Positions 1,125-23,305 of a stretch of 28,299 nucleotides of DNA are shown here, piece by piece; position 1 is the first letter of the stretch, and each line of letters opens with the position of its first letter. The notes beneath the pieces are model-generated. The model searched no databases. It saw only the letters and a program-made list of their open reading frames with translations, and was not told the DNA's origin. The stretch is from a virus: positions 1 to 28,299 of the IMG/VR virus record IMGVR_UViG_3300033149_000908; one strand, given 5' to 3'. The translations under genes were made by a program, and so were the position numbers.

Positions 1125-1125
1125 A

Positions 1126-1133
1126 TTGTGTAT
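1126..1133 (+). promoter_or_regulatory. Putative late promoter octamer TTGTGTAT, copy 1 (portal)
   Basis: Exact TTGTGTAT one base after the terminase stop and 54 bases before the portal ATG. It is one of six identical copies that precede genes in this window. No convincing sigma-70 -35 box is seen upstream. Promoter function is inferred from placement. Confidence 0.6.
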
Positions 1134-1135
1134 AG

Positions 1136-1170
1136 CAATGTAATCGACAATCATATCGTCAATTGTATTG
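1136..1170 (+). other. Imperfect hairpin in portal leader
   Basis: Two 16-base arms around a CAT loop (1152-1154) pair at 14 of 16 positions, counting two G-U pairs; the mismatches are C-A and A-C. It lies directly after promoter copy 1 and just upstream of the AAAGGAAA ribosome binding region at 1172-1179. No T-run follows, so it is not an intrinsic terminator. It could shape the 5' end or the access of ribosomes to the portal message. Confidence 0.4.
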
Positions 1171-1187
1171 CAAAGGAAACAATCTAA

Positions 1188-3311
1188 ATGTCTAAAGACC
1201 CTCTTTATCAAACGTGGGCAAGCGATGCCGAAAAAGACAAAATAACCAACAATGTTAACCTAGAGGGTTATGATGGAGTAGTATATAAGTCGGAAGCTCA
1301 TGGAATTGGGCCTTACTACGGCGGTAGAAAGCAGACTTATCTAGATATTGAGCCAAACAGAAATGTTCGGCCATCTTTTGATCGTGGCGACTATGACGCC
1401 TTTCGTCCGGGCGAAGCCATACCTCAACGCCAAAAGAAGATTATTGCTGCATGTATGCAGGCTTATGATCGCGTTGGCATTATCCGTAATGTTATTGACT
1501 TGATGGGTGATTTTGCCAGTCAGGGATTGGTGCTTGTTCATCCAAATAAAACAATTGAAAAATTTTATAGAAAATGGTTTAATCAGGTCAACGGATATGA
1601 AAGATCTGAGAGGTTTCTAAACTATCTTTACAGATGTGGAAACGTCATTGTAAAACGCAGAACTGCTAAACTAGATAGAAAAAAAGAAGCCGAATTAAAG
1701 CGTGCTGCTGGTGCCGACATTGTTATTGACCCTAAAAAGGTTCCACGCAGAGAAATTCCTTGGATGTATGATTTTTTGAATCCTACTGCTGTAGATATTA
1801 GCGATGCGGGTATGTTGGCTGTTGGCAAGCCTAGTTTCTATCTAAATATTTCCAAGTATACCCAGCAAGCCCTGATAAAAACCGCCACTACGAATGAGGC
1901 TGTTTTTAAAACATTGCCCAAGGATCTACAGAAACAGGTGCAGAATGGCGAAAGAAGGATTCCTCTAGATCCTAATAATACCTTCTTTTTCCACTATAAA
2001 AAAGACGATTGGCTGCTTTGGGCTAACCCAATGATTTATGCTATTCTGGACGATGTACGTATGTTGCAGAAAATGCAGTTGGCTGATTTGGCGGCTTTGG
2101 ATGGTACGATTAGTCAGGTTAGATTGTGGACCGTTGGCGACTATGACCATAAGATTGTTCCAACAAAGGCGGGTCTTCAGAAGATCAGAGACATTCTTGC
2201 CAGCAACGTTGGCGGTGGCACGATGGATTTGGTTTGGGGTCCAGAGCTTAAATTTACAGAAAGTAATTCTCAAGCCTACAAGTTCTTAGGATCTGAGAAA
2301 TATCAACCAGTTCTTACCAGTATCTATGCTGGACTTGGAATTCCTCCGACTCTTACCGGTGCCTCTGGTGCTAGTGGTGGTTATACCAATAACTACGTTT
2401 CTCTAAAAACCCTTATTGAAAGATTAGAGTATGGCCGGGAGATATTGGCACAGTTTTGGAAGCAGGAAATAGAGTACGTCAGAAAAGCTATGGGCTTCAG
2501 ACTTCCTGCTGAAATTCACTTTGATAGTATTATACTCTCTGATGAGTCTGCACAGAAGAAATTGCTTATGGACCTGACCGATAGGGGAATTCTGTCTGAT
2601 GAAACCTTGCTTGAGAGATTTAGAGAATTGCCAAGTATTGAAAGGGTTCGCGTGAGACGAGAGGAAAGAGATCGTAACGATCCTAAAACCCCCAACAAGG
2701 CGGGTCCATACCATAATCCTCATCACAAAGAGGATATGGCGAAAATTGGTATTACCAAGGATGTTCTTGATTCTGAAGAGTATTTTGAACAAATAGGTTT
2801 ACCATATGAGGAAAAAGAGGAGGTTGAAGTAAAACCCTCTGGTCCTAATCAGAAAAAGAGCGAACCTGTTAATGAACCCGGAAGACCGCCACTCGCCCCG
2901 GATAACCAACCAAGAAAGCAGCGGCGTGTTTTGCCCCGTAGTGGCGAACCTACTTCCGCTGTGTTGTGGGGTATAGAGGCTCAAGAGAAGATATCGGAGG
3001 TTATGACCCCTATTGCCTGCACTCACTTTGGAAAGGCGGACGCTCGTGCCTTGAGTAAATCCCAAGTTGAGGAATTGGAGTATCTTAAGCTATGTATATT
3101 CACTGGTATGGAGCCCATGATTGAGGTTACACCGGAGATTATACAAGAGGTTTTACAATCTAATACTAAGCCTAGTAAGGCATTTGAAGATATGGTTGAT
3201 GGCAAAGCCACCACCTTTAATAGCGTTAGACAAAGAAAGCCTAACACATCTGAAATGCGTCATATTTACGCTTCTTCATTCGCGGAAATATTCTGCTTTT
3301 GGTCAAATTAA
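1188..3311 (+). CDS. Portal protein
   Basis: A 707-residue protein directly downstream of TerL, in the size range of phage portal proteins. The portal is the dodecameric ring at one capsid vertex through which DNA enters and to which the neck attaches. The first ~500 residues look like a portal core, with segments such as DRVGIIRNVIDLMGDFASQG and later GLGIPPTLTGASGASGGYTN, a pattern seen in portals of this type. After about residue 490 the protein becomes charged and low in complexity, with a Pro/Lys/Arg-rich linker around residues 540-590, then a separate ~110-residue C-terminal segment of unknown role. The ATG at 1188 is preceded by a modest GGAAA site. It appears to be transcribed from its own promoter octamer and separated from the protease gene by another. 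Confidence 0.85.
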   Translation: MSKDPLYQTWASDAEKDKITNNVNLEGYDGVVYKSEAHGIGPYYGGRKQTYLDIEPNRNVRPSFDRGDYDAFRPGEAIPQRQKKIIAACMQAYDRVGIIRNVIDLMGDFASQGLVLVHPNKTIEKFYRKWFNQVNGYERSERFLNYLYRCGNVIVKRRTAKLDRKKEAELKRAAGADIVIDPKKVPRREIPWMYDFLNPTAVDISDAGMLAVGKPSFYLNISKYTQQALIKTATTNEAVFKTLPKDLQKQVQNGERRIPLDPNNTFFFHYKKDDWLLWANPMIYAILDDVRMLQKMQLADLAALDGTISQVRLWTVGDYDHKIVPTKAGLQKIRDILASNVGGGTMDLVWGPELKFTESNSQAYKFLGSEKYQPVLTSIYAGLGIPPTLTGASGASGGYTNNYVSLKTLIERLEYGREILAQFWKQEIEYVRKAMGFRLPAEIHFDSIILSDESAQKKLLMDLTDRGILSDETLLERFRELPSIERVRVRREERDRNDPKTPNKAGPYHNPHHKEDMAKIGITKDVLDSEEYFEQIGLPYEEKEEVEVKPSGPNQKKSEPVNEPGRPPLAPDNQPRKQRRVLPRSGEPTSAVLWGIEAQEKISEVMTPIACTHFGKADARALSKSQVEELEYLKLCIFTGMEPMIEVTPEIIQEVLQSNTKPSKAFEDMVDGKATTFNSVRQRKPNTSEMRHIYASSFAEIFCFWSN

Positions 3312-3328
3312 ACCCCCTTTCTTATTTT

Positions 3329-3336
3329 TTGTGTAT
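3329..3336 (+). promoter_or_regulatory. Putative late promoter octamer TTGTGTAT, copy 2 (protease-MCP operon)
   Basis: Exact octamer 17 bases after the portal stop, preceded by a T-rich run. Only 23 bases separate it from the ATG at 3360, so the leader would be very short. It would drive protease-scaffold, decoration and capsid genes, which have no further copy between them. Confidence 0.6.
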
Positions 3337-3359
3337 TATTGGATATGGAGAATCCAAAT

Positions 3360-4838
3360 ATGAATATACCTATTTATCAATCTGAAATAAATGATGGTTT
3401 AGCAGATCAAATACAGAACAACTCTGTGGCCTGCTACGCCATCGCGGAATCTAATGCTAAACCTTCACCGGAAGCTGTAGAAAAACTGCAAAAAATATTG
3501 GCAGAAGGTAGAGATAGTGGTGAGCTTGCATTAGCCGAGAATAAGGGTCAGATAGATTTATTTTATCTAAAATCCATCTTGGTAAGCACTGGCTGGAATA
3601 AAAACGATGATGTTTTTGATCCAAAAGAATTGTGGGAAGCAAGACATACACCAGAAGACAAGCCGTTTAACTTTATGCACGATGAGAATGACATTATTGG
3701 TCATATCACTGCAAATGAAGTGGTTGATTTTGATGGTAATCCTGTGGATCAAAATTCGGAAGAAATCCCCGGTCAATTCAACATCCTCACTTCTGCTGTA
3801 ATCTACACTGAATGGTCTGATCCTGACCGCAGGTCTAGAATACAAAACCTAGTTCAAGAAATAGAAGAAAACAAATGGTTTGTTAGTATGGAATGTCTTT
3901 TTCCAAACTTTGATTACGCCTTAGCAAAAGATGGCGAATTTAGAGTTATCAGACGGAACGAGGCTTCTGCATTCTTGACTAAGCATTTAAGGTCATACGG
4001 AGGTGATGGAAAGTACGAAGACTACCAAGTGGGAAGACTGTTAAGAAACTTATCGTTCTCTGGTAAAGGCTTAGTTTCCAAACCCGCAAACCCACGAAGT
4101 ATAATTCTGGAAGGAAATGATTTTTTTGACGAATCTCAATCTAAAGTTTTATCTTTATCTTCACTAAAGGAGAAGAATATGTCTGATAATTACGAAAAGC
4201 AGGTTGATGACCTGCGTGCTGAGTTGGCAGAAGCTAAAGCTGCTAACGAGGCTCTTAAAGAGAAAGTTGTTGCCGAGCAACAGGCTGAATTTGAAGAAAA
4301 AATTCAGAGTCTCGAAGCTACAATCGCAAGTTTGTCTGAAAAGGTTTCAGAACAAGCCGCTGCGAATGAAACTCTTGCCAAATCTTTGGAAGAAGCACAA
4401 GAAGCTATGGCTGCTAAAGACGAAGATATGAAGAAGAAAATGGAAGAGTTGAAGGAAATGAAAAAGAAAGAAGCTATGTATAAGCGAAAGGCAGAGCTTG
4501 AAGAAGCTGGTTTTGACGCTGAAGAGGCTTCCGCAACCGTTGCTGAATTTGAGTTGGTTGACGACGAAACATTCAGTAAAATTGTTGCCATGATGAAAAA
4601 GAAGGCTGGCGACAAAAAAATGGAGAAAGAGGAAGCTCTTAAGGAAAAAGCATCTGAGCAGGCTGAAGAAGAAGAAGTTGATTCTGCTGAAGCAAGCGAA
4701 GAAATTTTGGACGATGTTGAAACATCTCCAGAAGTTGCTGTTGCAGAGGCTATGGGCGAGGAAGATCCCGCTCAAAATCTTCGTGCCGTGGCTTCAGAAT
4801 GGATCGGTTCTGTTCTTGGTCAAAAAGAAAACAACTAG
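3360..4838 (+). CDS. Prohead maturation protease fused to scaffold domain
   Basis: A 492-residue protein with two parts. Residues ~1-260 resemble a capsid maturation serine protease: the likely catalytic His107 sits in FNFMHDENDIIGHI and the likely Ser176 in WFVSMECLFPNF, followed by the closing motif KGLVSKPANPRSI that is common at the end of this domain. Residues ~274-440 are a highly charged Glu/Lys/Ala coiled coil typical of internal scaffolds, then an acidic tail. The ATG at 3360 was chosen because GGAG at 3347-3350 lies nine bases upstream; the in-frame TTG at 3339 and ATG at 3345 lack a spaced site and lie almost on the promoter octamer. The protease would cleave scaffold and possibly capsid during head maturation. 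The exact protease family was not proven. Confidence 0.85.
   Translation: MNIPIYQSEINDGLADQIQNNSVACYAIAESNAKPSPEAVEKLQKILAEGRDSGELALAENKGQIDLFYLKSILVSTGWNKNDDVFDPKELWEARHTPEDKPFNFMHDENDIIGHITANEVVDFDGNPVDQNSEEIPGQFNILTSAVIYTEWSDPDRRSRIQNLVQEIEENKWFVSMECLFPNFDYALAKDGEFRVIRRNEASAFLTKHLRSYGGDGKYEDYQVGRLLRNLSFSGKGLVSKPANPRSIILEGNDFFDESQSKVLSLSSLKEKNMSDNYEKQVDDLRAELAEAKAANEALKEKVVAEQQAEFEEKIQSLEATIASLSEKVSEQAAANETLAKSLEEAQEAMAAKDEDMKKKMEELKEMKKKEAMYKRKAELEEAGFDAEEASATVAEFELVDDETFSKIVAMMKKKAGDKKMEKEEALKEKASEQAEEEEVDSAEASEEILDDVETSPEVAVAEAMGEEDPAQNLRAVASEWIGSVLGQKENN
4179..4838 (+). CDS. Nested in-frame scaffold protein
   Basis: Inside the protease gene, AAAGGAG at 4166-4172 stands six bases before an in-frame ATG at 4179. 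This would give a separate 219-residue protein made only of the coiled-coil scaffold and its acidic tail (MSDNYEKQVDDLRAELAEA at its start). The ribosome binding site matches those of the decoration and capsid genes, which fits the high copy number needed for scaffold. Such nesting is known for lambda C/Nu3. Expression from this start is inferred, but signal quality and domain boundary agree well. Confidence 0.8.
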   Translation: MSDNYEKQVDDLRAELAEAKAANEALKEKVVAEQQAEFEEKIQSLEATIASLSEKVSEQAAANETLAKSLEEAQEAMAAKDEDMKKKMEELKEMKKKEAMYKRKAELEEAGFDAEEASATVAEFELVDDETFSKIVAMMKKKAGDKKMEKEEALKEKASEQAEEEEVDSAEASEEILDDVETSPEVAVAEAMGEEDPAQNLRAVASEWIGSVLGQKENN

Positions 4839-4865
4839 TTATTCAAACTCAAAGGAGAATTAATA

Positions 4866-5357
4866 ATGGCTCTCAAACAAGATAGATCTACTCTGGCAAC
4901 AGACATCTCTTACTTCATGAATGAAGTTGCAGAACGAGGTGGGGTTGTCGCACATGGTACTGCTGGTAGCGGTGCTTCAATGGATAACGGTAACGCTGTT
5001 GTTACCTATGCTGCTGACGCCTCTGGTGTTGTTCCAGTTGGGCTGTTGATTAACGATATGGTTAACATTGACCTGACTCGTCAACACTTGAATCAGCACA
5101 AAGATGAAGTTCAGAAGGGCGGCAAAGTCACTCTTCTCCGTAAGGGTTGGGTTGTAACCGATGCCTTGGAAGGCACTGCTCCTAATCAGGGCGATTTGGC
5201 TTACCTTGGTCACAGTGGCAACTTGGCAACAAGTAACATCGTATCTGATGACGCTGATGATGACGGTTCTACCCGTATTGTTGGTCGCTTCTTGAGCGAT
5301 GTTGATCAGTACGGTTACGCCAAGGTCTTCATCGACCTCCCTAACACTAACCTCTAA
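4866..5357 (+). CDS. Head decoration / capsid-stabilising protein
   Basis: A 163-residue beta-rich protein between scaffold and capsid genes, the usual place for head decoration (lambda gpD-like position) proteins. It shows a conserved-looking core with GVVPVGLLINDMVNIDLTRQ and GGKVTLLRKGWVVTD, then an acidic loop (DDADDDG) and a C-terminal strand region. AAAGGAG at 4851-4857 sits eight bases before the ATG, a very strong site consistent with an abundant virion protein. No octamer precedes it, so it should be co-transcribed with the protease and capsid genes. The role is inferred from context and general character, not from a catalytic motif. Confidence 0.75.
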   Translation: MALKQDRSTLATDISYFMNEVAERGGVVAHGTAGSGASMDNGNAVVTYAADASGVVPVGLLINDMVNIDLTRQHLNQHKDEVQKGGKVTLLRKGWVVTDALEGTAPNQGDLAYLGHSGNLATSNIVSDDADDDGSTRIVGRFLSDVDQYGYAKVFIDLPNTNL

Positions 5358-5383
5358 TTTAAACAACTAAAGGAGAAGAAATA

Positions 5384-6427
5384 ATGTCATACAACAGACC
5401 TACACCTGAATTCATCGAACTGCTGAAACAGTCTGGTGATTCTGATAAATCGGTTGCAATGCAAGCCCAGCGAGAAATCGCAAAGGCTTTGGAAACACCT
5501 TTGCGTAAGGGTGTTTTGTTTGGAGATGTTGTTCGCGGTATCTACGAGGCTATGCCTCTTGAGCCCGGAGCGTCACCTGAGTTCCCATTGGATCTCTTGG
5601 CACCCGGAACCGAGATTGATCACGTCGCCTTCACTAATCCCGGTAACGGACGTATTCCTGAGCGTCACGTTGAAGGTGATTACGTCATGGTTAACACCTA
5701 CGGTATCACAAGCTCGATTGACTTCTTGCTTCGATACGCTAGGGAAGCTAACTGGGGCGTTGTTAGTCGAGCTATGCAAGTTCTGGAATCGTCCTTCGTT
5801 AAGAAGATCAACGATGACGGATGGCACACTTTGCTGGCTGCTGCCGTAGACCGTAACATCTTGGTTTACGATGGCGATGCTGGTGCTGGTCAGTTTACCA
5901 AGCGATTGGTGAGCTTGATGAAGACTGTTATGCGTCGAAATGGTGGTGGTAACAGCGTTACTGCTCCCGGTCGATTGACTGATCTTTACATGTCGCCAGA
6001 AGCTATCGAAGATATCCGCAACTGGGGTGTCGATCAGCTTGACGAAGTTTCCCGTCGTGAAATCTACACAGCATCGGATGATGGTGCTTCTTTGACACGA
6101 GTGTTTGGTGTCAATCTTCACGACCTGTTTGAGTTCGGTGACGGACAGGAGTATCAAGAATACTTCATCAACGATTTGGGTGGTTCTATCGAATCAAACG
6201 ATGTTGAGTTGGTTATTGGTCTTGATCAATCCGCTAACGACTCGTTCGTTATGCCTGTCAAGAAGGAAGTTGAGATCTTTGAAGATCCCGCACTTCACCG
6301 TCATCAGCGACAAGGCTACTACGGCTGGGAAGAATCATCGCTGGCTCGTTCTAAGAACGAATACGGTAGATTATTCGAGAAAAGCCGCTTCGGAAGAGGC
6401 GGCTTTTTTTCTGTTAATTGTGTATAA
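5384..6427 (+). CDS. Major capsid protein (with probable abnormal C-terminal extension)
   Basis: A 347-residue protein directly after the decoration gene, with AAAGGAG at 5369-5375 eight bases before ATG. Size, order and strong initiation support the HK97-fold major capsid role, the shell subunit of the head. The N-terminal segment (MSYNRPTPEFIELLKQSG) and the dense middle (FTNPGNGRIPERHVEGDYV, RIFGVNLHDL-like strand near 6100) suit a capsid protein. The last ~16 codons are odd: they run through a perfect intrinsic terminator (6382-6410) and the promoter octamer (6418-6425) before the TAA at 6425-6427. An out-of-frame TAG at 6367-6369 lies just before the terminator, so a one-base indel or stop loss is a plausible explanation; the natural C-terminus may be near NEYG. 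Confidence 0.88.
   Translation: MSYNRPTPEFIELLKQSGDSDKSVAMQAQREIAKALETPLRKGVLFGDVVRGIYEAMPLEPGASPEFPLDLLAPGTEIDHVAFTNPGNGRIPERHVEGDYVMVNTYGITSSIDFLLRYAREANWGVVSRAMQVLESSFVKKINDDGWHTLLAAAVDRNILVYDGDAGAGQFTKRLVSLMKTVMRRNGGGNSVTAPGRLTDLYMSPEAIEDIRNWGVDQLDEVSRREIYTASDDGASLTRVFGVNLHDLFEFGDGQEYQEYFINDLGGSIESNDVELVIGLDQSANDSFVMPVKKEVEIFEDPALHRHQRQGYYGWEESSLARSKNEYGRLFEKSRFGRGGFFSVNCV
6382..6410 (+). terminator. Intrinsic (rho-independent) terminator at end of capsid gene
   Basis: A 10-bp stem (arms 6382-6391 and 6396-6405, one G-U pair) closes a GGAA tetraloop, which is a GNRA type, and the 3' arm runs into seven consecutive T (6404-6410). It is a textbook terminator between the head operon and the first fibre gene. 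Unusually, the annotated capsid reading frame extends through it. Confidence 0.9.
6418..6425 (+). promoter_or_regulatory. Putative late promoter octamer TTGTGTAT, copy 3 (first fibre gene)
   Basis: Exact octamer directly after the terminator and 45 bases before the ATG at 6471. It overlaps the last codons and stop of the capsid ORF. Here the downstream bases make a TATAAT, but the other five copies do not, so the octamer itself seems to be the conserved element. Confidence 0.6.
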
Positions 6428-6470
6428 TGTGTTGAGTGAGTTTGTTTGACAATTAAACGAGAGAACAAAT

Positions 6471-8504
6471 ATGGCAGTTGTATCCGTATCAGCACAGAAC
6501 AGTAGATTAACCGATATGGAATCCACTACTGGAATTGGCGATATTGGTGGTGGTACTGGTGCGGCGTTGGAAACCGATTTCAAATACCAATCAAGCAACT
6601 GTGTAGCTAGAAAAGGTGCTTCGGGACAAAGAGGTTTCTATTATATTAACGGAACTACAGATGATTTGAGCGGTGGTGGTACTTACACTACGGTTCTGTT
6701 TAAGTACATTTGTGCTACTCCCGGTCTTCTAGAGCTATCCACCTCTGGTAACGTTGGTTTAGAGTTGAGCATTGGAAGTGGAACTGGCGATCATTATGAT
6801 TATGATGTCCAGTTTGGCGACACTTATCCAGCTATTTCTAGTTTTTTGATTCTTCCGATTGATCCCAATATCGCTGGGTTTAGAGATAGAACCACGGGTA
6901 GTCCTGCCTTAGCTTCGGCAGATTATTACGGTATAGAGTACGACCAGACGGGCGTTTCTAAATCTCCAAACAATGGATTAGATGCTATAGATTTGGCTAT
7001 TGGTTTGACATTGGTTGGTGGAGATGGTGCAGATCCAGACGGTACTTGGCAAGATTTTTCAGACTTTGATTTCGGAACTACTACCAATAGGTTTGGATAT
7101 GTAAGGGAGTTGGATGGTATTTATTTTATGTACGGAACTTTACAGATAGGTTCTGCCACCGCAACAGTTTTCAACGATTCTGGACAGACTTTGACTTTTC
7201 CAGATGGATTATTCGCTCCGGGGTGGTCTGGCATAGGTATTGATTTGCAGAATGCCACAAACGATATAGATTTTTCCAACAGTACCTTTCTAGGGCAGGG
7301 AGATTCAACAACCTCAGATACTCGCCCCGTAATAACTGTTACAGGTACATCTGGGTCATTTTTAGCCACATCTTGTGTTTTTGACAACTTTGCAGACATA
7401 ACTATGACTTCTGCCGCAGAGTTGAATGGGTGCTTGCTTACTGGCCTTGCGTTGCTAACTTTGGGTGGCGGAACCTTGGATGGTTGCACTTTCAATACTG
7501 CCGATACTGCCAGTGGGGTGGCTTTAATAGATACATCAACATTAAACAATATACAGAATTGTTCATTTGACAATACTGGTGGAGTTGGTCATGCAATAGA
7601 GCTTGACACTACGGGAACTTATACTTTTAGCAATAACTCCTTTACTGGTTATGGTGCAGATGGAACAAATGATGCTGCTATTTATAACAATTCCGGTGGT
7701 GCTGTGACCATCAACATTACTAATGGTGGTGACACTCCGACCGTTAGAAATGGAGCCGGGGCTAGTACAACAATTAATAATGCGGTATCGGTTTCTATTT
7801 CTGGTGTTAGTGAGGGTACTTCTGTGCAGGTTATTGCAGATGCAACGGTTGGAAGTGTTACTGAGGGTGATGTTATTTCCGAAGGTTTAGCAGACAGTAC
7901 CGGATCGTTTTCATTTTCATTTAACTATGAAGGTGATATTGATGTTGTCGTTCGCTGCCGCAATCAGGGTTTTCCAACTGCTGGTATTGCGGAATCTAAC
8001 GGTGGTGGTACTTTTGCAGATGAAACAACGGCAAACAACAGTAGTGCGGTAAATGATATTACACTACTTCCCGCCATTTCCCCGGTCAGTGGTGACGGTT
8101 ATAATTGGGGGCATGGCGAAAAGTTTAATCAGTTGAAGTTGGACATTTCTACCGCCGGTGGTGCTGGAGTGGCTAGTCTAACTTGGGAATATTGGAATGG
8201 TAGTGCGTGGACAGCGGTAAGCAATTTATCTGATGGTACAAATAGCTATCAAAACACTGGACCAAACATAGTTTCATGGGACGCTCCTTCGGGGTGGGCT
8301 ACAACCTCGGTTAATTCCCAAGGACCATATTATTACATTAGGGCAAGACAAAATTCTGCCACTGTTCCGGGGGCTCAACCTTTGGGAAGGAAAGTTAAAC
8401 TGGATGTGACAAGATATTTGCCATTTACACAGAATAACACGATAACTAATAGTGGACTCAGTGTTGTGGCGGTATGGATCGAAGATACTATTTCAACTTT
8501 TTAG
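6471..8504 (+). CDS. Large beta-helix fibre/adhesin-like structural protein
   Basis: A 677-residue Gly/Thr/Ser/Asn-rich protein with no recognisable catalytic motif. Residues ~240-440 have the short repeating turns of a right-handed parallel beta-helix (for example IDFSNSTFLGQG, NGCLLTGLALLTLGGGTLDG, IQNCSFDNTGG). Residues ~530-650 form a jelly-roll-like module marked by LTWEYWNGSAWTAVSN and GPYYYIRARQNS, a pattern seen in phage fibre proteins. The C-terminus (RYLPFTQNNTITNSGLSVV) shares a motif with the next gene's product. Its placement straight after the capsid gene, with its own octamer and a weak GAGAG ribosome site, suggests a virion surface protein: a head, neck or tail fibre. Which structure it attaches to cannot be read from the sequence. 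Confidence 0.7.
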   Translation: MAVVSVSAQNSRLTDMESTTGIGDIGGGTGAALETDFKYQSSNCVARKGASGQRGFYYINGTTDDLSGGGTYTTVLFKYICATPGLLELSTSGNVGLELSIGSGTGDHYDYDVQFGDTYPAISSFLILPIDPNIAGFRDRTTGSPALASADYYGIEYDQTGVSKSPNNGLDAIDLAIGLTLVGGDGADPDGTWQDFSDFDFGTTTNRFGYVRELDGIYFMYGTLQIGSATATVFNDSGQTLTFPDGLFAPGWSGIGIDLQNATNDIDFSNSTFLGQGDSTTSDTRPVITVTGTSGSFLATSCVFDNFADITMTSAAELNGCLLTGLALLTLGGGTLDGCTFNTADTASGVALIDTSTLNNIQNCSFDNTGGVGHAIELDTTGTYTFSNNSFTGYGADGTNDAAIYNNSGGAVTINITNGGDTPTVRNGAGASTTINNAVSVSISGVSEGTSVQVIADATVGSVTEGDVISEGLADSTGSFSFSFNYEGDIDVVVRCRNQGFPTAGIAESNGGGTFADETTANNSSAVNDITLLPAISPVSGDGYNWGHGEKFNQLKLDISTAGGAGVASLTWEYWNGSAWTAVSNLSDGTNSYQNTGPNIVSWDAPSGWATTSVNSQGPYYYIRARQNSATVPGAQPLGRKVKLDVTRYLPFTQNNTITNSGLSVVAVWIEDTISTF

Positions 8505-8510
8505 TCTTTT

Positions 8511-8518
8511 TTGTGTAT
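8511..8518 (+). promoter_or_regulatory. Putative late promoter octamer TTGTGTAT, copy 4 (fibre-neck operon)
   Basis: Exact octamer six bases after the preceding stop and 47 bases before the ATG at 8566, after a T-rich run. No other copy is seen until 19781, so it may drive about 11 kb of fibre and neck genes. Confidence 0.6.
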
Positions 8519-8565
8519 TACAACTAGGCTGATGAACCAACCATAAATTTCTTAGGAGTTAAATA

Positions 8566-11115: not shown

Positions 11116-11150
11116 TTTTTAGTTTAGAAAAGAAAATAAGGAAGGATAAA

Positions 11151-11693: not shown

Positions 11694-11700
11694 GATTTCT

Positions 11701-14831: not shown

Positions 14832-14840
14832 GATTAAAAA

Positions 14841-15596
14841 ATGGCAGACAATGTACCAATTACCCCCGGAGCGGGTGCAAATATTGCAGCAGATGAAATT
14901 TTAGGCGTGAAGTATCCACGTTCTAAGATGGTTGTTGGTGCAGATGGCGTCAATGATGGGGACGTTTCTGATGCCAACCCTGTACCAATGAAAATTCGTG
15001 GTGACGAGTTTTCCTCCGGTGCTACCAAGTATGACGCCAAAGTGACCTCTGATGGTGAGCTTGCAACCACATCAACAGAGCGTGAGCGTAATGTTTATGC
15101 TGTGTACCATGATGATAGCGTTGGCACCGGCGATACTGATTTTGTTTTGATAGACAAAGACGACACTACAAACTTCCCGCATAGCGAAACCGGAAGAATA
15201 GACATTTCTGCTATCAATTTACATTTGGCCCAATCTTCTGCGAACCCAGATGGTGAGTTTATCATGGGTGTCATTACTAGAATTGATGGCGTGGACGCAG
15301 ATATATGCTGGGCTTTTGGGCTTGATTTTAACCTGCCCTCAAATACAGATATTAGAGAAGATTTCAACTTTGCTCCAAGTCAGTTGAAGTTTGAAGTGGA
15401 TAGTGGTGACACGACTAGAATTATTACCAACTATAAATCGCTCAATGATGCCGCTTTTAATACTGCAACTCCCATGCCTAGTCCGAGAGGTGCTGCTACA
15501 GTAACTCCCGCCGTTGGGGATGTTGTGTGTAGACTAACTAATAGTAGTGGTGTATTAAGACTCTTTCTTGGCGTTATGTATCATGGAGAGCCCTAA
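14841..15596 (+). CDS. Fibre-associated structural protein
   Basis: A 251-residue protein. The N-terminal ~50 residues (PITPGAGANIAADEILGVKY, then KMVVGADGVNDGDVSDANPV) match a pattern that recurs at the start of phage tail-fibre or minor virion proteins and probably serves as an attachment segment. The rest is predicted beta-sandwich ending in VLRLFLGVMYHGEP. It lies between two tiny genes that share a C-terminal motif and overlaps the downstream one by a single base (TAATG). No enzyme signature was found. The role is inferred from the N-terminal pattern and context. Confidence 0.6.
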   Translation: MADNVPITPGAGANIAADEILGVKYPRSKMVVGADGVNDGDVSDANPVPMKIRGDEFSSGATKYDAKVTSDGELATTSTERERNVYAVYHDDSVGTGDTDFVLIDKDDTTNFPHSETGRIDISAINLHLAQSSANPDGEFIMGVITRIDGVDADICWAFGLDFNLPSNTDIREDFNFAPSQLKFEVDSGDTTRIITNYKSLNDAAFNTATPMPSPRGAATVTPAVGDVVCRLTNSSGVLRLFLGVMYHGEP

Positions 15597-15811
15597 TGGT
15601 AGATGGATCGCTATTACTTTTATTTTTTCACGATAGTTCCGGTCCACCGGCTTTTAGGGCCGAGGAAATCAACTTTTCACTGGATACAAACACCCAGTCT
15701 GAGTTTAATTTAGAAATTCAGACGGAAATCGAGCAGATTTTGAGTATAAATAGACAACTGGACGACACGTTAGAAATAAATCGTTCAATGGAATTTACAG
15801 TAGAGAGATAA
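15596..15811 (+). CDS. Small alternating-strand protein with INR repeats
   Basis: A 71-residue protein coupled to the preceding gene through TAATG. Its last ~35 residues alternate strictly between hydrophobic and polar positions with a decamer-like repeat (ILSINRQLDD, TLEINRSMEF, then TVER at the end). The C-terminal L-x-I-N-R-x-x-E-x-x-x-x-R signature is shared with the 60-residue protein upstream. Such alternation fits a long beta-strand in an intertwined trimeric fibre or a strand added to a partner. The N-terminus has a short hydrophobic stretch (LLLLFF) but not a full membrane segment. Function unknown. Confidence 0.6.
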   Translation: MVDGSLLLLFFHDSSGPPAFRAEEINFSLDTNTQSEFNLEIQTEIEQILSINRQLDDTLEINRSMEFTVER

Positions 15812-15814
15812 ATC

Positions 15815-16141
15815 ATGGCTTGCTCAGAAGAAGAAGTACATTACAATGATATAGGCACCGACATCGTGGTGACTGTAAATGACTGTGTTTCTGGCACAGC
15901 CACAGCATTAGATGTTTCGAGTGCTACTACGTTAGAATTAATTTTAAAAGCCCCCTCTGGTGCTTCGTCTACTAAGACAGCGGGTCTGAATACAGACGGT
16001 ACTGATGGGAAAATCAAGTATACTTCTGTAGACGGTGATTTTAACGAAGTGGGAACATGGAGAATACAGGCAAAAATAGTTATTGGCGGTGGGACATTTA
16101 GGTCTGATGTGGGGACTTTCAAAGTTTACGAAAACCTATAA
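15815..16141 (+). CDS. Small Ig/beta-sandwich baseplate-type structural protein
   Basis: A 108-residue protein with strand-rich sequence and the motifs DVSSATTLELILKAPSGA, GTDGKIKYTSVDGDFNEVGTW and GTFRSDVGTFKVYENL. This layout matches the short N-terminal beta-sandwich domain seen in baseplate upper protein-like phage proteins, where it serves as a structural or attachment module. It starts three bases after the preceding stop and is followed at 12 bases by the connector-like gene. Assignment as a virion protein is fairly safe; the exact location in the virion is not. Confidence 0.65.
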   Translation: MACSEEEVHYNDIGTDIVVTVNDCVSGTATALDVSSATTLELILKAPSGASSTKTAGLNTDGTDGKIKYTSVDGDFNEVGTWRIQAKIVIGGGTFRSDVGTFKVYENL

Positions 16142-16153
16142 GGTGGAGATATT

Positions 16154-16660
16154 ATGCCTTGGCAAATGGATATGATTCTCATGTTTAGATCGGTTATTGG
16201 CGATCTGGATGAGACAAAATATACAGATGAAAGACTCAAGCAGATTTTAATGGTTGGTGCTTATAACGTCCAAAATGAAGCTGTGTTTCTCAATACATAT
16301 GTTGTTAATGTTGGTCAGGTTTCAATTACTCCCGATCCAGTGGATGAGGGTGATAGTGACTTTACCATTTTAACAGTTTACAAATCTGCCTGTATTTTAA
16401 TTGGCAGCGAGGTTAAAACAGAATCAGCTAATGCTATTTCGATTAAAGATGGTCCATCGGCCATTGACCTTAGAGGGGTTAGTGGTAGTCTTTTAACGCT
16501 ATACAAGGATGTATGTGCTAAGTTTGATGAACTTATGACTAAGTATCAATACGAAAAAGGCGATGGTGGAACTCCTATCGGAACTGCTATTCTCGGACCT
16601 TACAGTCCGGGTAGTTGGGGGGTAAGTCAAAACCGTTATGATGGAGGTAGATATTACTAA
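16154..16660 (+). CDS. Head-tail connector/adaptor candidate
   Basis: A 168-residue, mainly alpha-helical protein with a good GGTGGAG ribosome site. The N-terminus (LDETKYTDERLKQILMVGAY) and the helix pattern with short beta-hairpin insertion are like the head-tail adaptor proteins that bind below the portal (HK97 gp6/SPP1 gp15 type). The C-terminal tail is Gly/Tyr-rich and ends in GGRYY. It is the first clearly non-fibre gene after the adhesin block, at the head of a run of neck-type genes. The stop overlaps the next start (TAATG). Assignment is by general character and gene order. Confidence 0.5.
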   Translation: MPWQMDMILMFRSVIGDLDETKYTDERLKQILMVGAYNVQNEAVFLNTYVVNVGQVSITPDPVDEGDSDFTILTVYKSACILIGSEVKTESANAISIKDGPSAIDLRGVSGSLLTLYKDVCAKFDELMTKYQYEKGDGGTPIGTAILGPYSPGSWGVSQNRYDGGRYY

Positions 16661-17664
16661 TGGCTACACTTACAACATTAACGCTGGATGGTGATGGTGT
16701 AATAGATGGCACCATTATGCATGATGATATCACATCCCCTCGATATGATCCCCCCTTTTACACACATTGTAATGATGATCCAGATAGTAGTTCATTCGAT
16801 TACGTTGCGAATGAAGGAAGCCCCGGAACGATGACGGCGAGGTTTACATTAACTAACGTTGATGCTGATTTTGACAGCATGGACACTTTTCAAATTAGGG
16901 TAGATAGAGAGGGTGGATTTGTTCCCGGTGCTACCGCTGTAATAAATGCTAGAGTATATTCAGGAACGGGAACTGGTACACCCTTGACTGATAGTCAACA
17001 AGTCGCTTCTTTTACAGATCTTAGAAGTGTTGCCACTGTTGTGTTTGGTAGCTTAACTGGTACTAAAGCACAATGGGATGATGCGGAAGTCGCGTTTGAG
17101 TGGCAAAACGTATCCACAAATGGTGAAATTATAAAAATTTACGGGTGTGATTTTGATGGTACTTATACAGAATCAGCACCGGCCAGTTCAACTTCAATCG
17201 CTGGGCGTTGGTTAGGAGAAAATAAAATGAGTTCACAAAAAATTATCGGTGGTAACGGTTTTAACGAGGGTGGTGCTACGGTTTTTTCAACCGTCACTGG
17301 CGAGGCTACAGATGTGTCGAATCCAGACCTTAATAGAACTGCACTTCCTACAGACTACAATATGTACGGAATTGTAGAAAGTCAGGACATTCTTGAAACC
17401 GCTGCGACCCAACTTCTTCGGGCTGGAATTCCCGGTAGACAATTTGAGGTTTTATCGTATGCGTTTGTTTGTAGTGCCGCTTCAACAGTTACTTTCAAGT
17501 CTGATACGACCGTTATAGGTGGTCCCTTTGTTGTTGCTGCAAATGGTGGAGTTTCTGCAAATGGTGGCGGTGAAGCCTTGTTTACAACTGCCGTGGGGGA
17601 AGATCTCAACGTGCAAACTACTGTCGGAGACATCGGTGGTCACATAACCTATAGGATTATCTAA
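16660..17664 (+). CDS. Two-domain beta-sandwich structural protein
   Basis: A 334-residue protein with two beta-rich halves. Residues ~1-175 resemble a carbohydrate-binding-like sandwich (FTLTNVDADFDSMDTFQIRV, QWDDAEVAFEWQNVS). Residues ~190-334 are a small sandwich domain recurrent in phage structural proteins, with FKSDTTVIGGPFVVAANGG and TTAVGEDLNVQTTVGDIGG. At the joint, AGGAG (17214-17218) stands eight bases before an in-frame ATG (17227), so the second half could be made separately, or two genes may have fused by loss of a stop. Both ends overlap neighbours by TAATG. Likely a virion surface protein; the precise role is unknown. Confidence 0.6.
   Translation: MATLTTLTLDGDGVIDGTIMHDDITSPRYDPPFYTHCNDDPDSSSFDYVANEGSPGTMTARFTLTNVDADFDSMDTFQIRVDREGGFVPGATAVINARVYSGTGTGTPLTDSQQVASFTDLRSVATVVFGSLTGTKAQWDDAEVAFEWQNVSTNGEIIKIYGCDFDGTYTESAPASSTSIAGRWLGENKMSSQKIIGGNGFNEGGATVFSTVTGEATDVSNPDLNRTALPTDYNMYGIVESQDILETAATQLLRAGIPGRQFEVLSYAFVCSAASTVTFKSDTTVIGGPFVVAANGGVSANGGGEALFTTAVGEDLNVQTTVGDIGGHITYRII
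17214..17229 (+). promoter_or_regulatory. Internal ribosome binding site and ATG within the two-domain gene
   Basis: AGGAG at 17214-17218 followed after eight bases by ATG 17227-17229 in the same frame as the host gene. Use of this start would give a 145-residue protein beginning MSSQKIIGGNG that contains only the second domain. An out-of-frame TAG at 17213-17215 overlaps the site, as at many normal gene ends. Confidence 0.45.
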
Positions 17665-18179
17665 TGGCGATTAATATCCCAAGCGGCGTTTTTGATGTAT
17701 ACAATGAAGCTATCTTGCTTTTCACAAGGTCGGCCACTTTGGTCTATCCTGAGAAAAAGGAGGACTGTCCGAATTGCATTATGAATACGATGGGTACAAG
17801 TAATCGGTCTGTGAGCATTTATCAAACCGGTGGTCCATACCCATTTGATCGGGGTATGCCTTGTCCTTATTGCAATGGAAAAGGTTACAAGGCTGTAGAA
17901 GCAACTGACAGTATCACGCTTAGAATTTACTGGGATAGGAAGAACTGGGTTAAGACTGGGGCAGAAATCAACATTCCAGACATGTCGATTCAAACAATCG
18001 CTTACATGACAGATTTAGACAAAATAGAAAAAGCAAAATACTTGATTCCCTCTTATGATGGAATTGAGAAATACGACCCCAATGCAAAATACGAAAAGGC
18101 TGGAATATCTTTTCCTCAAGGATTTAAACAAAACAACACAAAATATGTTGTGACATTCTGGAAAAGGGCACAAGGATAA
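17664..18179 (+). CDS. Neck/head-completion candidate with CxxC zinc-binding pair
   Basis: A 171-residue protein with two CxxC motifs, Cys35-Cys38 (CPNC) and Cys67-Cys70 (CPYCNGKGY), likely to bind one zinc ion; the second resembles a DnaJ-type zinc repeat but no J domain or full four-repeat array exists. The zinc knuckle is inserted in a beta-rich protein with a strand-type end (TKYVVTFWKRAQG). It sits between the beta-sandwich gene and a tail-completion candidate, where head-closure proteins are usually encoded. Zinc binding is inferred from the four cysteines; a neck role is inferred from position. Confidence 0.5.
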   Translation: MAINIPSGVFDVYNEAILLFTRSATLVYPEKKEDCPNCIMNTMGTSNRSVSIYQTGGPYPFDRGMPCPYCNGKGYKAVEATDSITLRIYWDRKNWVKTGAEINIPDMSIQTIAYMTDLDKIEKAKYLIPSYDGIEKYDPNAKYEKAGISFPQGFKQNNTKYVVTFWKRAQG

Positions 18180-18181
18180 AC

Positions 18182-18793
18182 ATGGCAAGAGTTACATTTC
18201 TGGAATCCAATGCGGAGTTAGAAAAAAGAATACGGAAGGGTTTGGCTGAAGATATCAACAAGGCGATTCGTTCTAGAATTCCGCAATTAGAATCTCAGCT
18301 AGAACCTATATTCCGCAGTGCTTTGCGAGATAGTCCAGAGATGAACTCATTGTCAAACGGTTTACTAAGAGCCGAATTCGGATTGGAAAACGATCCCTCA
18401 AATGCTATTGTGGAGGCTGTAGTTAGCAGTTTAACTGTTCAATGGGTTAAAATAAACCCCAGCAATTTTTCTGGCGGCGTGACTATTTCATTGCAACCAT
18501 CGGATTTTGCTAATCTTTTGTCTCTGCCAGAAGGTAAGCAGGAGATTAAAGGTGGTTCTCTGCCTTGGCTGTCATGGTTATTGACATTGGGAGATGAAAT
18601 CATCATAACTGGATACGGAGTGGAGTTTGGATCATTTCCAACAACAAGAACCGGAGAAGCTAAAATGTCCACTAAATTTGCACCATACAAAGTTAATAGT
18701 GCATTTTCTGGAACTATAGATGACAACTTTGTTACTAGAGCAATTGATAGAGTCGCTGTAGAAGTTCAGAATGTGATAAGGAGGATACTATAA
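18182..18793 (+). CDS. Neck or tail-completion candidate
   Basis: A 203-residue protein with a helical N-terminus (LEKRIRKGLAEDINKAIRSR), a central beta region (GGVTISLQPSDFANLL, LGDEIIITGYGVEFG) and a C-terminal helix (DDNFVTRAIDRVAVEVQNVI). This order is like proteins of the HK97 gp10/tail-completion class that join head and tail. It starts two bases after the preceding stop and its own stop overlaps the next start (TAATG). The gene lies where tail-completion proteins are usually found. Homology was not tested. Confidence 0.5.
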   Translation: MARVTFLESNAELEKRIRKGLAEDINKAIRSRIPQLESQLEPIFRSALRDSPEMNSLSNGLLRAEFGLENDPSNAIVEAVVSSLTVQWVKINPSNFSGGVTISLQPSDFANLLSLPEGKQEIKGGSLPWLSWLLTLGDEIIITGYGVEFGSFPTTRTGEAKMSTKFAPYKVNSAFSGTIDDNFVTRAIDRVAVEVQNVIRRIL

Positions 18794-19773
18794 TGCCGGG
18801 AGGAAGTAATACTAAATTAAGTCTATACAAAGATAAAGTCCTAGATGCTGGATTATCTGAAATACTTTTGGATAATTTTGTAAATTTTTATGATTGGGGC
18901 TTGGTGGATGCTGGCGGGTTCTACTCTATAAACATTCCTCAGAGCGGCATTTACGGTGGTGATCGACATAAGCTAAGACTTGTAGATAGCCCAAATTATA
19001 CAGATGGTCAGGTCTGGGAGGGGTATAGACAGAATTGGGTTTGGGAGGGTGATGGCAATATAGATGGCGTCACCGAGCAACCTATCAATATATCTGGCGT
19101 TTTTGTAGATGGTTCATTTTACGCTAATGGTAATGTAGACAAACCTTTTTATATTGATTATCAGTTGGGTCGGGTTGTATTTGATTCTGCTGAAAGTACA
19201 TCTAGCGATGTACAAATAGCCTATAGCCACAAGCGTGTTCAGGTGGTTCCAGCCGAGGGTATTTCTTGGTTTCGTCAACTTCAGCAAAACTCCTTTAGAA
19301 ATGAGTCTAATTTTCAAGTACAGGGATCTGGAAACTGGCTAAGACTTGGACAATCTAGGGTGCAGTTGCCAGCGATAGCTGTAGAAGTGGTGCCAGCACG
19401 AGATACCAAGGGGTTTGAGTTGGGTGGCGGACAGTGGGTGAGAAGTGACGTTTTGTTCTACGTTATGAGTGAGAATCACTGGGAAACCGTTAATTTGATG
19501 GATACCATTGTTGCACAAAACGATAGAACTTTAACCCTGTTTGACACCACAAAGGTGGCACAGAGCGGGGTTTCCCCTTTTACTTTTGAAAATGGCAAAC
19601 AAAGAGAGCTACGTGGTCATGCTACCGCAAGTGGATTATACCCGCAATTAGTGGAAAATTACCCCTTTAGAAAATGTTTTATTTATGAAACAAGGGGGGA
19701 TAATATCACACAATTATCTGTAGATCTCTACATGGGCGTAGCACGCTGTAAAACCGAAGTGGGGCCGGTTTAG
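18793..19773 (+). CDS. Neck/tail-terminator-region structural protein
   Basis: A 326-residue protein just before the tail tube transcription unit. The first ~150 residues are rich in Trp, Tyr and Gly (for example QNWVWEGDGNIDG) and look like a beta-sandwich. The C-terminal half contains VRSDVLFYVMSENHWETVNL followed by MDTIVAQNDRTLTLFDTTKV, an alpha/beta pattern reminiscent of tail terminator proteins, which cap the tube and join it to the head. The length is greater than ordinary terminators, so a fusion of accessory and terminator domains is possible. It is too short and has the wrong character to be a tail sheath. Assignment is tentative. Confidence 0.45.
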   Translation: MPGGSNTKLSLYKDKVLDAGLSEILLDNFVNFYDWGLVDAGGFYSINIPQSGIYGGDRHKLRLVDSPNYTDGQVWEGYRQNWVWEGDGNIDGVTEQPINISGVFVDGSFYANGNVDKPFYIDYQLGRVVFDSAESTSSDVQIAYSHKRVQVVPAEGISWFRQLQQNSFRNESNFQVQGSGNWLRLGQSRVQLPAIAVEVVPARDTKGFELGGGQWVRSDVLFYVMSENHWETVNLMDTIVAQNDRTLTLFDTTKVAQSGVSPFTFENGKQRELRGHATASGLYPQLVENYPFRKCFIYETRGDNITQLSVDLYMGVARCKTEVGPV

Positions 19774-19780
19774 GCGTTTT

Positions 19781-19788
19781 TTGTGTAT
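19781..19788 (+). promoter_or_regulatory. Putative late promoter octamer TTGTGTAT, copy 5 (tail tube)
   Basis: Exact octamer seven bases after the upstream stop, within a T-run, 49 bases before the tube ATG. It gives the tail tube its own strong start, which suits a high-copy protein. Confidence 0.6.
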
Positions 19789-19837
19789 ATAATAATGCCT
19801 TTACCAGAGGGTATAACTCAAATAGAGGAGAATTTAA

Positions 19838-20872
19838 ATGGCACGTAATGATAGAATATTCTACGCTTGCCAAGCCGTTGTTATCGCTGCACCAACAGGA
19901 GAAGATCCTGCTGCTGCCGGTATTGTTCGTGGCTTGCAAAGTGTTGGAATGAATTCAAATTTTACGCTTGATCAGGTTTTTGAAATCGGTCAGCTTGAAA
20001 TTTATGAAAACATCGAAGATGTTGCTGATGTTGAAGTTACCTTGGAAAAGGTCATTGATGGCGAAAAACTTATCTTCAATCTCGCCTCCAATGGTTTGTG
20101 TCAAACTGACTTGGTAGCTGCTGCCAAGTCTCGTTGTGACGTTTATCTTGCGATTTACGACGATGGTACTTCCAATGCAACTGGTACAGCAAGAAATGTT
20201 TGCTGGAACTCCGGTATGTATATTTCGTCTGTTTCTTACAACTATAGTGTTGACGGAAACGCTACCGAGTCTGTGACTTTGGTTGGTAATGATCGTTTCT
20301 GGAATAATGACGGAAACCAAACTAGCGATACTGCTACGGCACAATTCCCCGCCGGTCTTACCGATGGTGAATTTGGAACAGACACGCCAAACTCTGGTGT
20401 TGTTCGCCGTAGGGATATTGACCTTGTTAGTTCTGACCTTCCGACCCTTGTTAAGTCCCAAGTTGGTGACGACACTGGTGGTCAAGGTGGCGGATTCCAC
20501 ATCCAGAGTGTTGCTGTATCTGCTGACTTTGGTCAGGAGAACATTTTGGAACTTGGACGATTTGGACCTTATGCCAAATTTACTTCGTTCCCAATTGAAG
20601 TTACCTGTGAATTTGAAGTTATCGCAACTTCTGGTGACTTGAAAAGTGTTTCCGGTGCAGATAAGAACTTGACCGATCAAGACATCGTTCTGTTTGACGA
20701 TGCTGGTACGGTTCTTGATCTTGGTGGAGCATCGTCTCCGACAGGTCTGACTGGAAAGAACAAGTTGACTTCGGTTTCCTATTCTGGTGGTGACACTGGC
20801 GGTGGGAACTCTACAGTTACTTATTCTTACAGTAACTTTAACACTTTACTCGTTGATGATGGTGGTAGCTAG
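19838..20872 (+). CDS. Major tail tube protein
   Basis: A 344-residue beta-rich protein with its own octamer and a strong AGAGGAG site. The N-terminal section (RGLQSVGMNSNFTLDQVFEI, then GQLEIYENIEDVADVEVTLE) has the look of tail tube/major tail proteins, whose rings stack into the tail around the tape measure. A second half with FGPYAKFTSFPIEVTCEFEV continues the strand pattern, followed by an apparently flexible Gly/Asp/Ser-rich end (DDGGS). Position, expression signals and character agree. No sheath gene lies beside it, in keeping with a non-contractile tail. Confidence 0.75.
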   Translation: MARNDRIFYACQAVVIAAPTGEDPAAAGIVRGLQSVGMNSNFTLDQVFEIGQLEIYENIEDVADVEVTLEKVIDGEKLIFNLASNGLCQTDLVAAAKSRCDVYLAIYDDGTSNATGTARNVCWNSGMYISSVSYNYSVDGNATESVTLVGNDRFWNNDGNQTSDTATAQFPAGLTDGEFGTDTPNSGVVRRRDIDLVSSDLPTLVKSQVGDDTGGQGGGFHIQSVAVSADFGQENILELGRFGPYAKFTSFPIEVTCEFEVIATSGDLKSVSGADKNLTDQDIVLFDDAGTVLDLGGASSPTGLTGKNKLTSVSYSGGDTGGGNSTVTYSYSNFNTLLVDDGGS

Positions 20873-20896
20873 TATATCTTTTTAGGGATTTAGGAT

Positions 20897-21943: not shown

Positions 21944-21947
21944 AATT

Positions 21948-22331
21948 GTGAAAGATAAAATCACAAAAGGTTTTTTAGAAAGCTCGATAAACTTAAGAAA
22001 CATTCGAGAGGAAAGGAGAAAAGAGGTTTCAAAAGATGCTTTATTTAAGTCCTGCAAAAAGAAAGTCCAGACCACTATGATCGGGGCTTTGGACGCCATA
22101 GAAAAACAGTTGGGTTTTTTGTGGGGTTTCGATGGACAAGACGTTCTTACAGAGGAGCAGAAGCAACTCAAAGAAATTTATGATGAGGTTAGAGCAAATA
22201 TACTAGACAGGGGCAATACACAAATCAGAAACTTGGAAGCGGAATTTGCTAATTATGATGTAAGTCGGAAAATGTATCAGATCAACATCCCTGTTGTTCC
22301 TGAGTCAAACAATCAAGAAGGAGAAAAGTAA
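21948..22331 (+). CDS. Small helical protein in tail-chaperone region (GTG start)
   Basis: A 127-residue charged helical protein that begins with GTG four bases after the preceding stop, with GGAAAGGGA just upstream. A short Trp/Gly/Phe patch (KQLGFLWGFDGQDVLTEEQK) interrupts the helices. It is followed after two bases by the next gene (AAGGAG site). Tail assembly chaperones are often encoded as a pair here, sometimes through a -1 frameshift, but no clear slippery heptamer was found at the junction. Function unknown, probably tail assembly. Confidence 0.55.
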   Translation: MKDKITKGFLESSINLRNIREERRKEVSKDALFKSCKKKVQTTMIGALDAIEKQLGFLWGFDGQDVLTEEQKQLKEIYDEVRANILDRGNTQIRNLEAEFANYDVSRKMYQINIPVVPESNNQEGEK

Positions 22332-22333
22332 TA

Positions 22334-23296
22334 ATGGACACAGAAAGACAAATAGAAGGCTTGGATAAAGATGGTAACACTGTTAAGGTATTGTTAAAGT
22401 CGCCCGGACCACAAGAATACAGAGATTCTCAAATAGAGTACAACAAGGCTTTTAGAAAGGCTTTGGATTCTGGTGCTTTGTTGAGACAGAAATTGTCTGA
22501 CCACATGGAAGAACAGGGTATCTGGAACGAAGATAAGCAGCAAAAAAACGATCAATACGCCGAGGACATTGCCGCTAAGGAGGAGGTTTTGAGAGTCGGT
22601 GGCATCCCTCTTTCTGAGGCACGAGATGTTGCAATCGAACTTCGGCAGCTTCGTTTTGAGTTTAGAGAATTTCTGGCAGAAAGAAATCAGCTTGATCAAA
22701 ACTCTGTGGAGGGACAGGCCGATAATGCAAGATTTTCTGAGCTTGTTAGGCTTTGTATGCTAAATCCTAAAACCAAGCGTCCTTATTTCCAAAGCCAAAA
22801 AGATTACGATGCCAGTATGGACCAGCCTTGGGTTGTTGAGGCTTCCGGCGAACTGGCACAAATGATATATGGTCTAGATCCTGATTATGATAATAAGCTA
22901 ACAGAAAATAAATTTCTGAAAGAATTCGATTTTGTTAATGAGGACTTGCGTTTGGTTAATAACGGGGGACACCTCGTTGACACCGAGGGCCGCCTTATTG
23001 ATGAAGATGGTAGATTTGTCGCTTATCGCACAGAAAAGGCTCAAGAAGAGCAAGACGTAGAGCAGCGGTATTTTGTCAATCGGGGTGGCGAGGAGGTTGT
23101 AGAAGTCGTTGACTCAGATGGTGATTCCACTTGGGTTGTGAAGGACAAAGCTGAAAGAAAGCCATTCTTGGACGAAAAGGGAAAACCCATTATTTCTGCC
23201 AAAAAAGAAGATGCTGAAAAGGAGGAAGATTTGGTAGCGGAAACAAAGCCAAAGCGAACCAGAAAAAAGTCTGAGAAAACCTCCACAGACTCATAA
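22334..23296 (+). CDS. Tail assembly chaperone-like protein
   Basis: A 320-residue acidic protein directly upstream of the tape measure unit. The N-terminal ~230 residues contain KSPGPQEYRDSQIEYNKAFR, DSGALLRQKLSDHMEEQGIW and VEGQADNARFSELVRLCMLN, a pattern I associate with proteins encoded just before tape measures in several tailed phages. The C-terminal ~90 residues are a run of acidic repeats ending in a Lys-rich tail (KPKRTRKKSEKT). Such proteins likely bind the tape measure while the tube assembles. The stop is followed after one base by the promoter octamer. Assignment is from position and pattern. Confidence 0.55.
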   Translation: MDTERQIEGLDKDGNTVKVLLKSPGPQEYRDSQIEYNKAFRKALDSGALLRQKLSDHMEEQGIWNEDKQQKNDQYAEDIAAKEEVLRVGGIPLSEARDVAIELRQLRFEFREFLAERNQLDQNSVEGQADNARFSELVRLCMLNPKTKRPYFQSQKDYDASMDQPWVVEASGELAQMIYGLDPDYDNKLTENKFLKEFDFVNEDLRLVNNGGHLVDTEGRLIDEDGRFVAYRTEKAQEEQDVEQRYFVNRGGEEVVEVVDSDGDSTWVVKDKAERKPFLDEKGKPIISAKKEDAEKEEDLVAETKPKRTRKKSEKTSTDS

Positions 23297-23297
23297 A

Positions 23298-23305
23298 TTG
23301 TGTAT
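23298..23305 (+). promoter_or_regulatory. Putative late promoter octamer TTGTGTAT, copy 6 (tape measure)
   Basis: Exact octamer one base after the upstream stop and 63 bases before the tape measure ATG, the longest leader of the six. Confidence 0.6.

Follow-up and report, generated by a model that had tools for sequence, protein, structure and literature searches.

The window studied here is a whole viral contig of 28,299 bases (IMG/VR record IMGVR_UViG_3300033149_000908). It holds the end of a packaging module and then head and tail genes, and every gene is on the forward strand. The octamer TTGTGTAT occurs six times on that strand, each time in a gene gap, and we propose that these copies are the core of late promoters. 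Probably, each belongs to a single-element late promoter that is read by host RNA polymerase with a phage-encoded region-2 sigma factor. The promoter would lack a fixed −35 box and consist of one extended −10-type element, at about −15 to −8, made of a T/A-rich lead-in and (T/G)GTGTA(T/A)A; transcription would begin at a purine, 8 nt beyond this element. Host RNA polymerase would be reprogrammed by a phage sigma in which region 2 is recognisable but region 4 is not; the sigma-bearing polymerase would melt the DNA at the element and transcribe the packaging, head, and tail genes. Because a copy of the element also precedes the sigma gene, the late programme would reinforce itself by feedback.

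An earlier sequence-only reading of the window had listed six forward copies of the octamer, ending 23–63 bases before the next start codon. An exact-match search returns the same six positions and no further forward copy, and the distances are correct. The copies and their predicted start nucleotides are:

1126–1133, forward strand: TTGTGTAT, exact match, before the portal gene (1188–3311); predicted +1 at A1142
3329–3336, forward strand: TTGTGTAT, before a protease/scaffold-like gene (likely start ATG 3360); predicted +1 at A3345
6418–6425, forward strand: TTGTGTAT, after the capsid gene and before gene 6471–8504; predicted +1 at G6434
8511–8518, forward strand: TTGTGTAT, before gene 8566–11115; predicted +1 at G8527 (position −1 is A, not a pyrimidine)
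19781–19788, forward strand: TTGTGTAT, before a tail-tube-like gene (19838–20872); predicted +1 at G19797
23298–23305, forward strand: TTGTGTAT, before a tape-measure-like gene (23369–28084); predicted +1 at G23314

The copy at 6418 overlaps the final codons of the capsid open reading frame (ORF; stop codon at 6425–6427). The reverse strand has two copies (22216–22223 and 26283–26290), both inside genes, which look like chance and which the sequence-only reading did not list. Together, the two strands hold 8 copies, compared to a mean of 1.14 in 100 shuffles (highest 4). Of the window's coding span, 2.2% is gap zones, and every forward copy is located there (0.022^6, or about 10^−10, for an octamer that was picked post hoc). 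By forward count the octamer is only 34th among the 8-mers of the window, but it is first for copies confined to gaps. All six gaps of at least 43 bases contain it, and no shorter gap does, as the sequence-only reading had stated. This holds if the gene after the portal begins at ATG 3360, which is preceded by GGAG, and not at the alternative TTG 3339. A transcript that begins at 3345, as predicted, would eliminate TTG 3339 as a start codon, and ATG 3360 behind GGAG fits.

The element marks the starts of structural-gene units in a large, so far uncultured phage family. We scanned for relatives of the portal and capsid proteins, which gave about 600 related stretches each, and retained the best 80 of each. 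More distant relatives have TTGGTGTAT, TTGTGTAGA, or TGTGTAAT at the corresponding places, and the variants among relatives also include TGGTGTAT. For example, the counterpart of the element at 23298 is TGTGTAAT in the relative G007 (at 29292), and TGTGTAAT is also found at 119093 in G003. The strict octamer was dropped as a search word because it misses TTGGTGTAT and TGTGTAAT, and we widened the search to KGTGTAW. So, the octamer that was initially taken as the conserved unit is real and bound to gaps, but the actual motif is wider: a T/A-rich lead-in and then (T/G)GTGTA(T/A)A, that is, KGTGTAW with the next base mostly A. In 153 related loci (1.75 Mb, with contigs that are partly redundant), the word occurs 275 times on the forward strand and 23 times on the reverse strand, while the reversed word, as a control, occurs 23 and 21 times.

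The strongest single result of the analysis is a test of orthologous gene junctions. We placed the junctions by protein matches first and looked for KGTGTA afterwards, counting non-redundant relatives. KGTGTA is present at the junction between the large terminase (TerL) and portal genes in 47 of 51 relatives, at the portal–protease junction in 71 of 72, within 170 bp past the capsid match in 58 of 63, and before the tail-tube-like gene in 8 of 9. In contrast, it is absent from the protease–decoration junction (0/75), the decoration–capsid junction (0/73), and the junction between the tube gene and the next gene (0/5). Controls gave 0–2 occurrences on the opposite strand and 0–6 for the reversed word. 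Thus, the element belongs to particular unit starts and not to gaps generally, and the conservation and strand bias that the sequence-only reading had proposed to look for in relatives are both found. In G007, all six late gaps of at least 40 bp contain TGTGTAW.

To locate the start site, we aligned 156 non-redundant sites from 40 families of downstream genes, with equal weight per family. The strong positions are KGTGTAWA and the T/A lead-in only. There is a weak A-rich patch near −40, and no strong or conserved −35 box was found in the alignment, including at the spacing of extracytoplasmic function (ECF) sigma factors. Counting from the first base of KGTGTAW, a pyrimidine-purine step is found at index 14/15 in 63% of sites over the 40 families. 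Other offsets have a mean of 26% and a maximum of 37%, and 0 of 3001 permutations reach 63%. Index 15 is the eighth base past KGTGTAWA. In the window, a purine is present at the predicted start in six of six sites and T is present at −1 in five of six. A step at a fixed distance is as would be expected for a transcription start, and on this basis we infer the exact start sites listed above.

The probable reader of the element is encoded by the phage. Proteins with sigma-70 region 2 are encoded in 13 of 16 records, several of which also encode a second sigma with region 4. The region-2-only sigma of the relatives has about 167–180 amino acids and lies in a conserved cassette, usually with the order small acidic ORF, sigma, helix-turn-helix (HTH) and coiled-coil protein, and sugar-nucleotide genes. 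Contig L018, which overlaps the window across 2,743 bp at 99.96% identity, shows the cassette of the window's own phage population. L018 has TTGTGTAT at 1045, the small ORF at 1097, and a 173-amino-acid sigma at 1372–1893, which puts the sigma gene about 6.3 kb upstream of the window; the cassette is followed by a ClpP-like protease, TerL, and portal. Across 57 distinct sigma loci, the element is found upstream of the sigma gene in 41, compared to 4 on the opposite strand and 16 for the reversed word. The sequence-only reading had named a phage sigma-like factor, a phage RNA polymerase, or an alternative sigma of the host as candidate readers and had suggested looking for a sigma or polymerase gene elsewhere in the genome. 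The same phage does encode a sigma, whose gene lies downstream of a copy of the word. A T7-type polymerase (PF00940) was matched in 0 of 16 records, in a search without a positive control, as the control genomes gave no match either.

The L018 sigma matches region 2 in Pfam (PF04542) with 33.5 bits (cut-off 24), and Pfam recognises no region 4 in its 173 amino acids. In an AlphaFold2 model, three confident helices form a sigma2 fold, and a weak linker joins them to a C-terminal unit of three helices (predicted local distance difference test, pLDDT, 82; predicted template modelling score, pTM, 0.47). Among solved structures, the model comes closest to an ECF region 2, though with E above 0.01. 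The lack of a recognisable region 4 agrees with the lack of a −35 box in the promoter, and an upstream contact may be made at the weak A-rich patch near −40. That the element is read by the region-2-only sigma is suggested by the position of its gene, the autoregulatory layout, and this domain logic.

Most cassettes have the small acidic ORF before sigma; it was considered as a possible counterpart of the T4 co-activator gp33, and a family search with it gave no match. The protein with an N-terminal HTH and a coiled coil (L018:3105–3905) lies downstream of sigma in all cassettes seen and is possibly the small terminase subunit. We also considered it as a region 4, and rejected this as the match (13.6 bits) is below the cut-off. 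The ClpP-like protease gene (L018:6673–7329) lies directly before the large terminase gene, and likewise in G007 (10393–11031).

Might the element instead be an extended −10 for the primary sigma of the host, with late activation by a phage activator and no dedicated sigma? At some sites TGTGTATAAT is like TG plus TATAAT, and the A/T bias persists past TGTAT. However, TG abuts TAT directly and is not one base off, and the downstream bases are variable. We also compared early and late modules, which are separated by strand, in three long relatives. (The late timing of the genes that the element would drive is itself inferred, from gene content and strand.) The top words in late-strand gaps include TGTGTAT (15/26) and TTGTGTA (13/26), each at 0 on the opposite strand. 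The top words in early-strand gaps include TATAAT and TTGACA, and any KGTGTAW occurs in 8 of 82 early gaps. A strict sigma70 pair (TTGACA, then 15–19 bp, then a TATAAT-like box) is present in 14 of 82 early gaps but in 0 of 26 late gaps of the same genomes. Also, sigma70-type matches in positions 1–20000 of the window are at chance level (39 versus 44.2 expected). We conclude that the octamer is very probably not a sigma-70 −10 box, as the sequence-only reading had argued, and that control by the host's primary sigma is very unlikely. An RNA-level role, in which the element is a signal for processing or anti-termination or is linked to terminators, and is not a promoter, would fit the several copies that lie directly after a terminator hairpin and U-tract. 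But many copies lack an upstream hairpin, and initiation fits both the pyrimidine-purine step at a fixed distance and the fact that early gaps have sigma70 boxes instead, so we regard such a role as extremely improbable. The promoter reading is supported by the fixed junctions, the strand bias, the start step, and the presence of sigma70 boxes in early gaps versus none here.

A different reader of the same promoter is somewhat easier to imagine, yet still unlikely: a second phage sigma (ECF-like, with regions 2 and 4) or an alternative sigma of the host could recognise the late element, while the region-2-only sigma serves another class. A sigma with regions 2 and 4 is present in G007 and other relatives, and the A-rich patch near −40 might reflect a relaxed −35 contact. 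On the other hand, there is no conserved −35 element at ECF spacing, and it is the region-2-only sigma that adjoins the packaging and head module and lies behind the element. The second sigma is in another, non-late module (L166:15746–16225, at 94.9 kb in G007, and in other relatives). It is also doubtful, though conceivable, that the late holoenzyme has a split sigma, in which the region-2 protein reads KGTGTAWA and a partner from the same operon replaces region 4 on the polymerase flap. The candidates for this partner are the small acidic ORF and the HTH and coiled-coil protein, with its weak region-4-like match. If true, an arrangement like that of gp55 and gp33 would have evolved independently of T4, without a recognisable sliding clamp.

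We return to the single element and its region-2 sigma, against which several points count. No element is found upstream in 16 of the 57 sigma loci, and late-strand gaps of at least 40 bp without the element occur in G003 (four) and G002 (three). The second phage sigma of several relatives is an alternative possible reader, and a second contact may exist at the weak A-rich patch near −40. In whole-chain fold searches with the sigma, the top matches are sigma factors, but with E above 0.01 they are not significant, so the assignment of regions rests on Pfam; the three helices at the C-terminus of the model could represent a reduced region 4. Finally, the ORF calls and start codons were made mechanically.

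The genes and the terminator around the elements, all on the forward strand, are:

66–1124: large terminase, C-terminal part, as the window starts inside the gene (phrog_2, terminase large subunit)
1188–3311: portal protein (phrog_2739), the first gene after the element at 1126
3360–4838: protease/scaffold-like gene, the first after the element at 3329; function assigned by position only
5384–6427: major capsid protein (weak match to the major capsid protein gp27 of phage G; phrog_2522)
6377–6410: intrinsic-terminator-like hairpin and U-tract, ending 7 nt before the element at 6418
19838–20872: tail-tube-like gene behind the element at 19781; by position only (weak match to phrog_985)
23369–28084: tape-measure-like gene downstream of the element at 23298, so named for its length and position

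The full large terminase gene, in L018 (7326–9308), encodes 660 amino acids. Family searches with the protease/scaffold-like gene gave no convincing match. As there is no element directly before the capsid gene, it is presumably transcribed from the element at 3329 or from further upstream. The capsid ORF runs through the terminator-like hairpin (window 6377–6427), and the punctuation after it, a terminator and then a promoter, has the same layout in relatives. Because the match of many relatives to the capsid protein extends only to residue 317 of 347, the final 30 residues may represent an extension that runs into the terminator.

Among about 50,000 phage records, there is hardly a counterpart to the capsid, portal, and sigma proteins of this large group. 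The element makes a transcription map readable for an uncultured group, including the late genes, the unit starts, and the switching factor, and the promoter and its probable sigma are a small, portable pair. As to hosts, capsid relatives (L287–L290) are found in metagenome bins labelled Flavobacteriales (two), Chitinophagia, and Alphaproteobacteria. G007 also has two DUF1501 genes, which are unusual phage cargo (L167:2261–3658 and 4749–5960; 101–106 kb), and a DNA polymerase III alpha that is split over two ORFs (L165:10077–14826; 69–74 kb).

The sequence-only reading had proposed an undescribed promoter class. The word and the sigma do differ from those of phiEco32 and T4, and we found no paper on this word as a phage promoter in the openly accessible literature that our search covered. 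However, that reading had not considered the closest known promoter, that of the sigma gp36 of phiEco32 (Kuravirus), whose middle and late promoters have the consensus tAATGTAtA (PMC8948821, PMC4331800). There, too, a single −10-type element is used; 7 of the 9 bases of tAATGTAtA agree with TTGTGTATA, and the measured start is 6–8 bp downstream of the element (PMC8948821), compared to the 8 nt predicted here in silico. gp36 is also a sigma without region 4 (PMC8948821, PMC4331800), and in both systems the structural genes are on one strand and the early genes are under sigma70. The differences are that TTGTGTATA and TAATGTATA differ at the second and third bases, with the core here being KGTGTAWA; that gp36 and this sigma show no detectable homology except for the generic region 2 (hhalign probability 1.9); and that phiEco32, from an unrelated phage group, has its sigma gene in the middle module and not before the packaging genes.

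The late promoters of T4, with gp55, gp33, and gp45, also have a single-element design (PMC2988020). Both systems have an element without a −35 box, a small region-2 phage sigma, and late genes, and the pattern T-R-T-R-W-A-T-A is common to the T4 element and TGTGTATA. The T4 element is TATAAATA, and its letters differ from the KGTGTAWA core, as the sequence-only reading had noted. The similarity of gp55 to this sigma is weak (hhalign probability 28 over 33 columns). Also, no sliding clamp of the T4 type (PF02916) or the bacterial type (PF02767) was matched in eight long relatives, although a divergent clamp could escape such a search, and the DNA polymerase found here is of the DnaE type. Phage 7-11 likewise places its late genes under a phage-encoded sigma, gp47, but its promoter is bipartite (GTAAtg-16-aCTA; PMC8948821) and its sigma has region 4. 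Bacillus phage G has the same gene order of sigma-like gp3, portal, decoration, and capsid; its capsid is 25% identical, and gp3 is among the fold matches of the sigma. We rejected phage G as a relative that shares the word, as no KGTGTAW word stands out in the gaps of its late module. With tblastn, the sigma and the portal had no match in annotated phages.

As the homology to gp36 and gp55 is unconvincing and clamps were not found, we propose that this system works like those of phiEco32 and T4 but may belong to neither. With the natural T/G variation at the first position of the element and the elements of phiEco32 and T4 for comparison, it becomes directly testable what makes a region-2-only sigma select a given −10 word.

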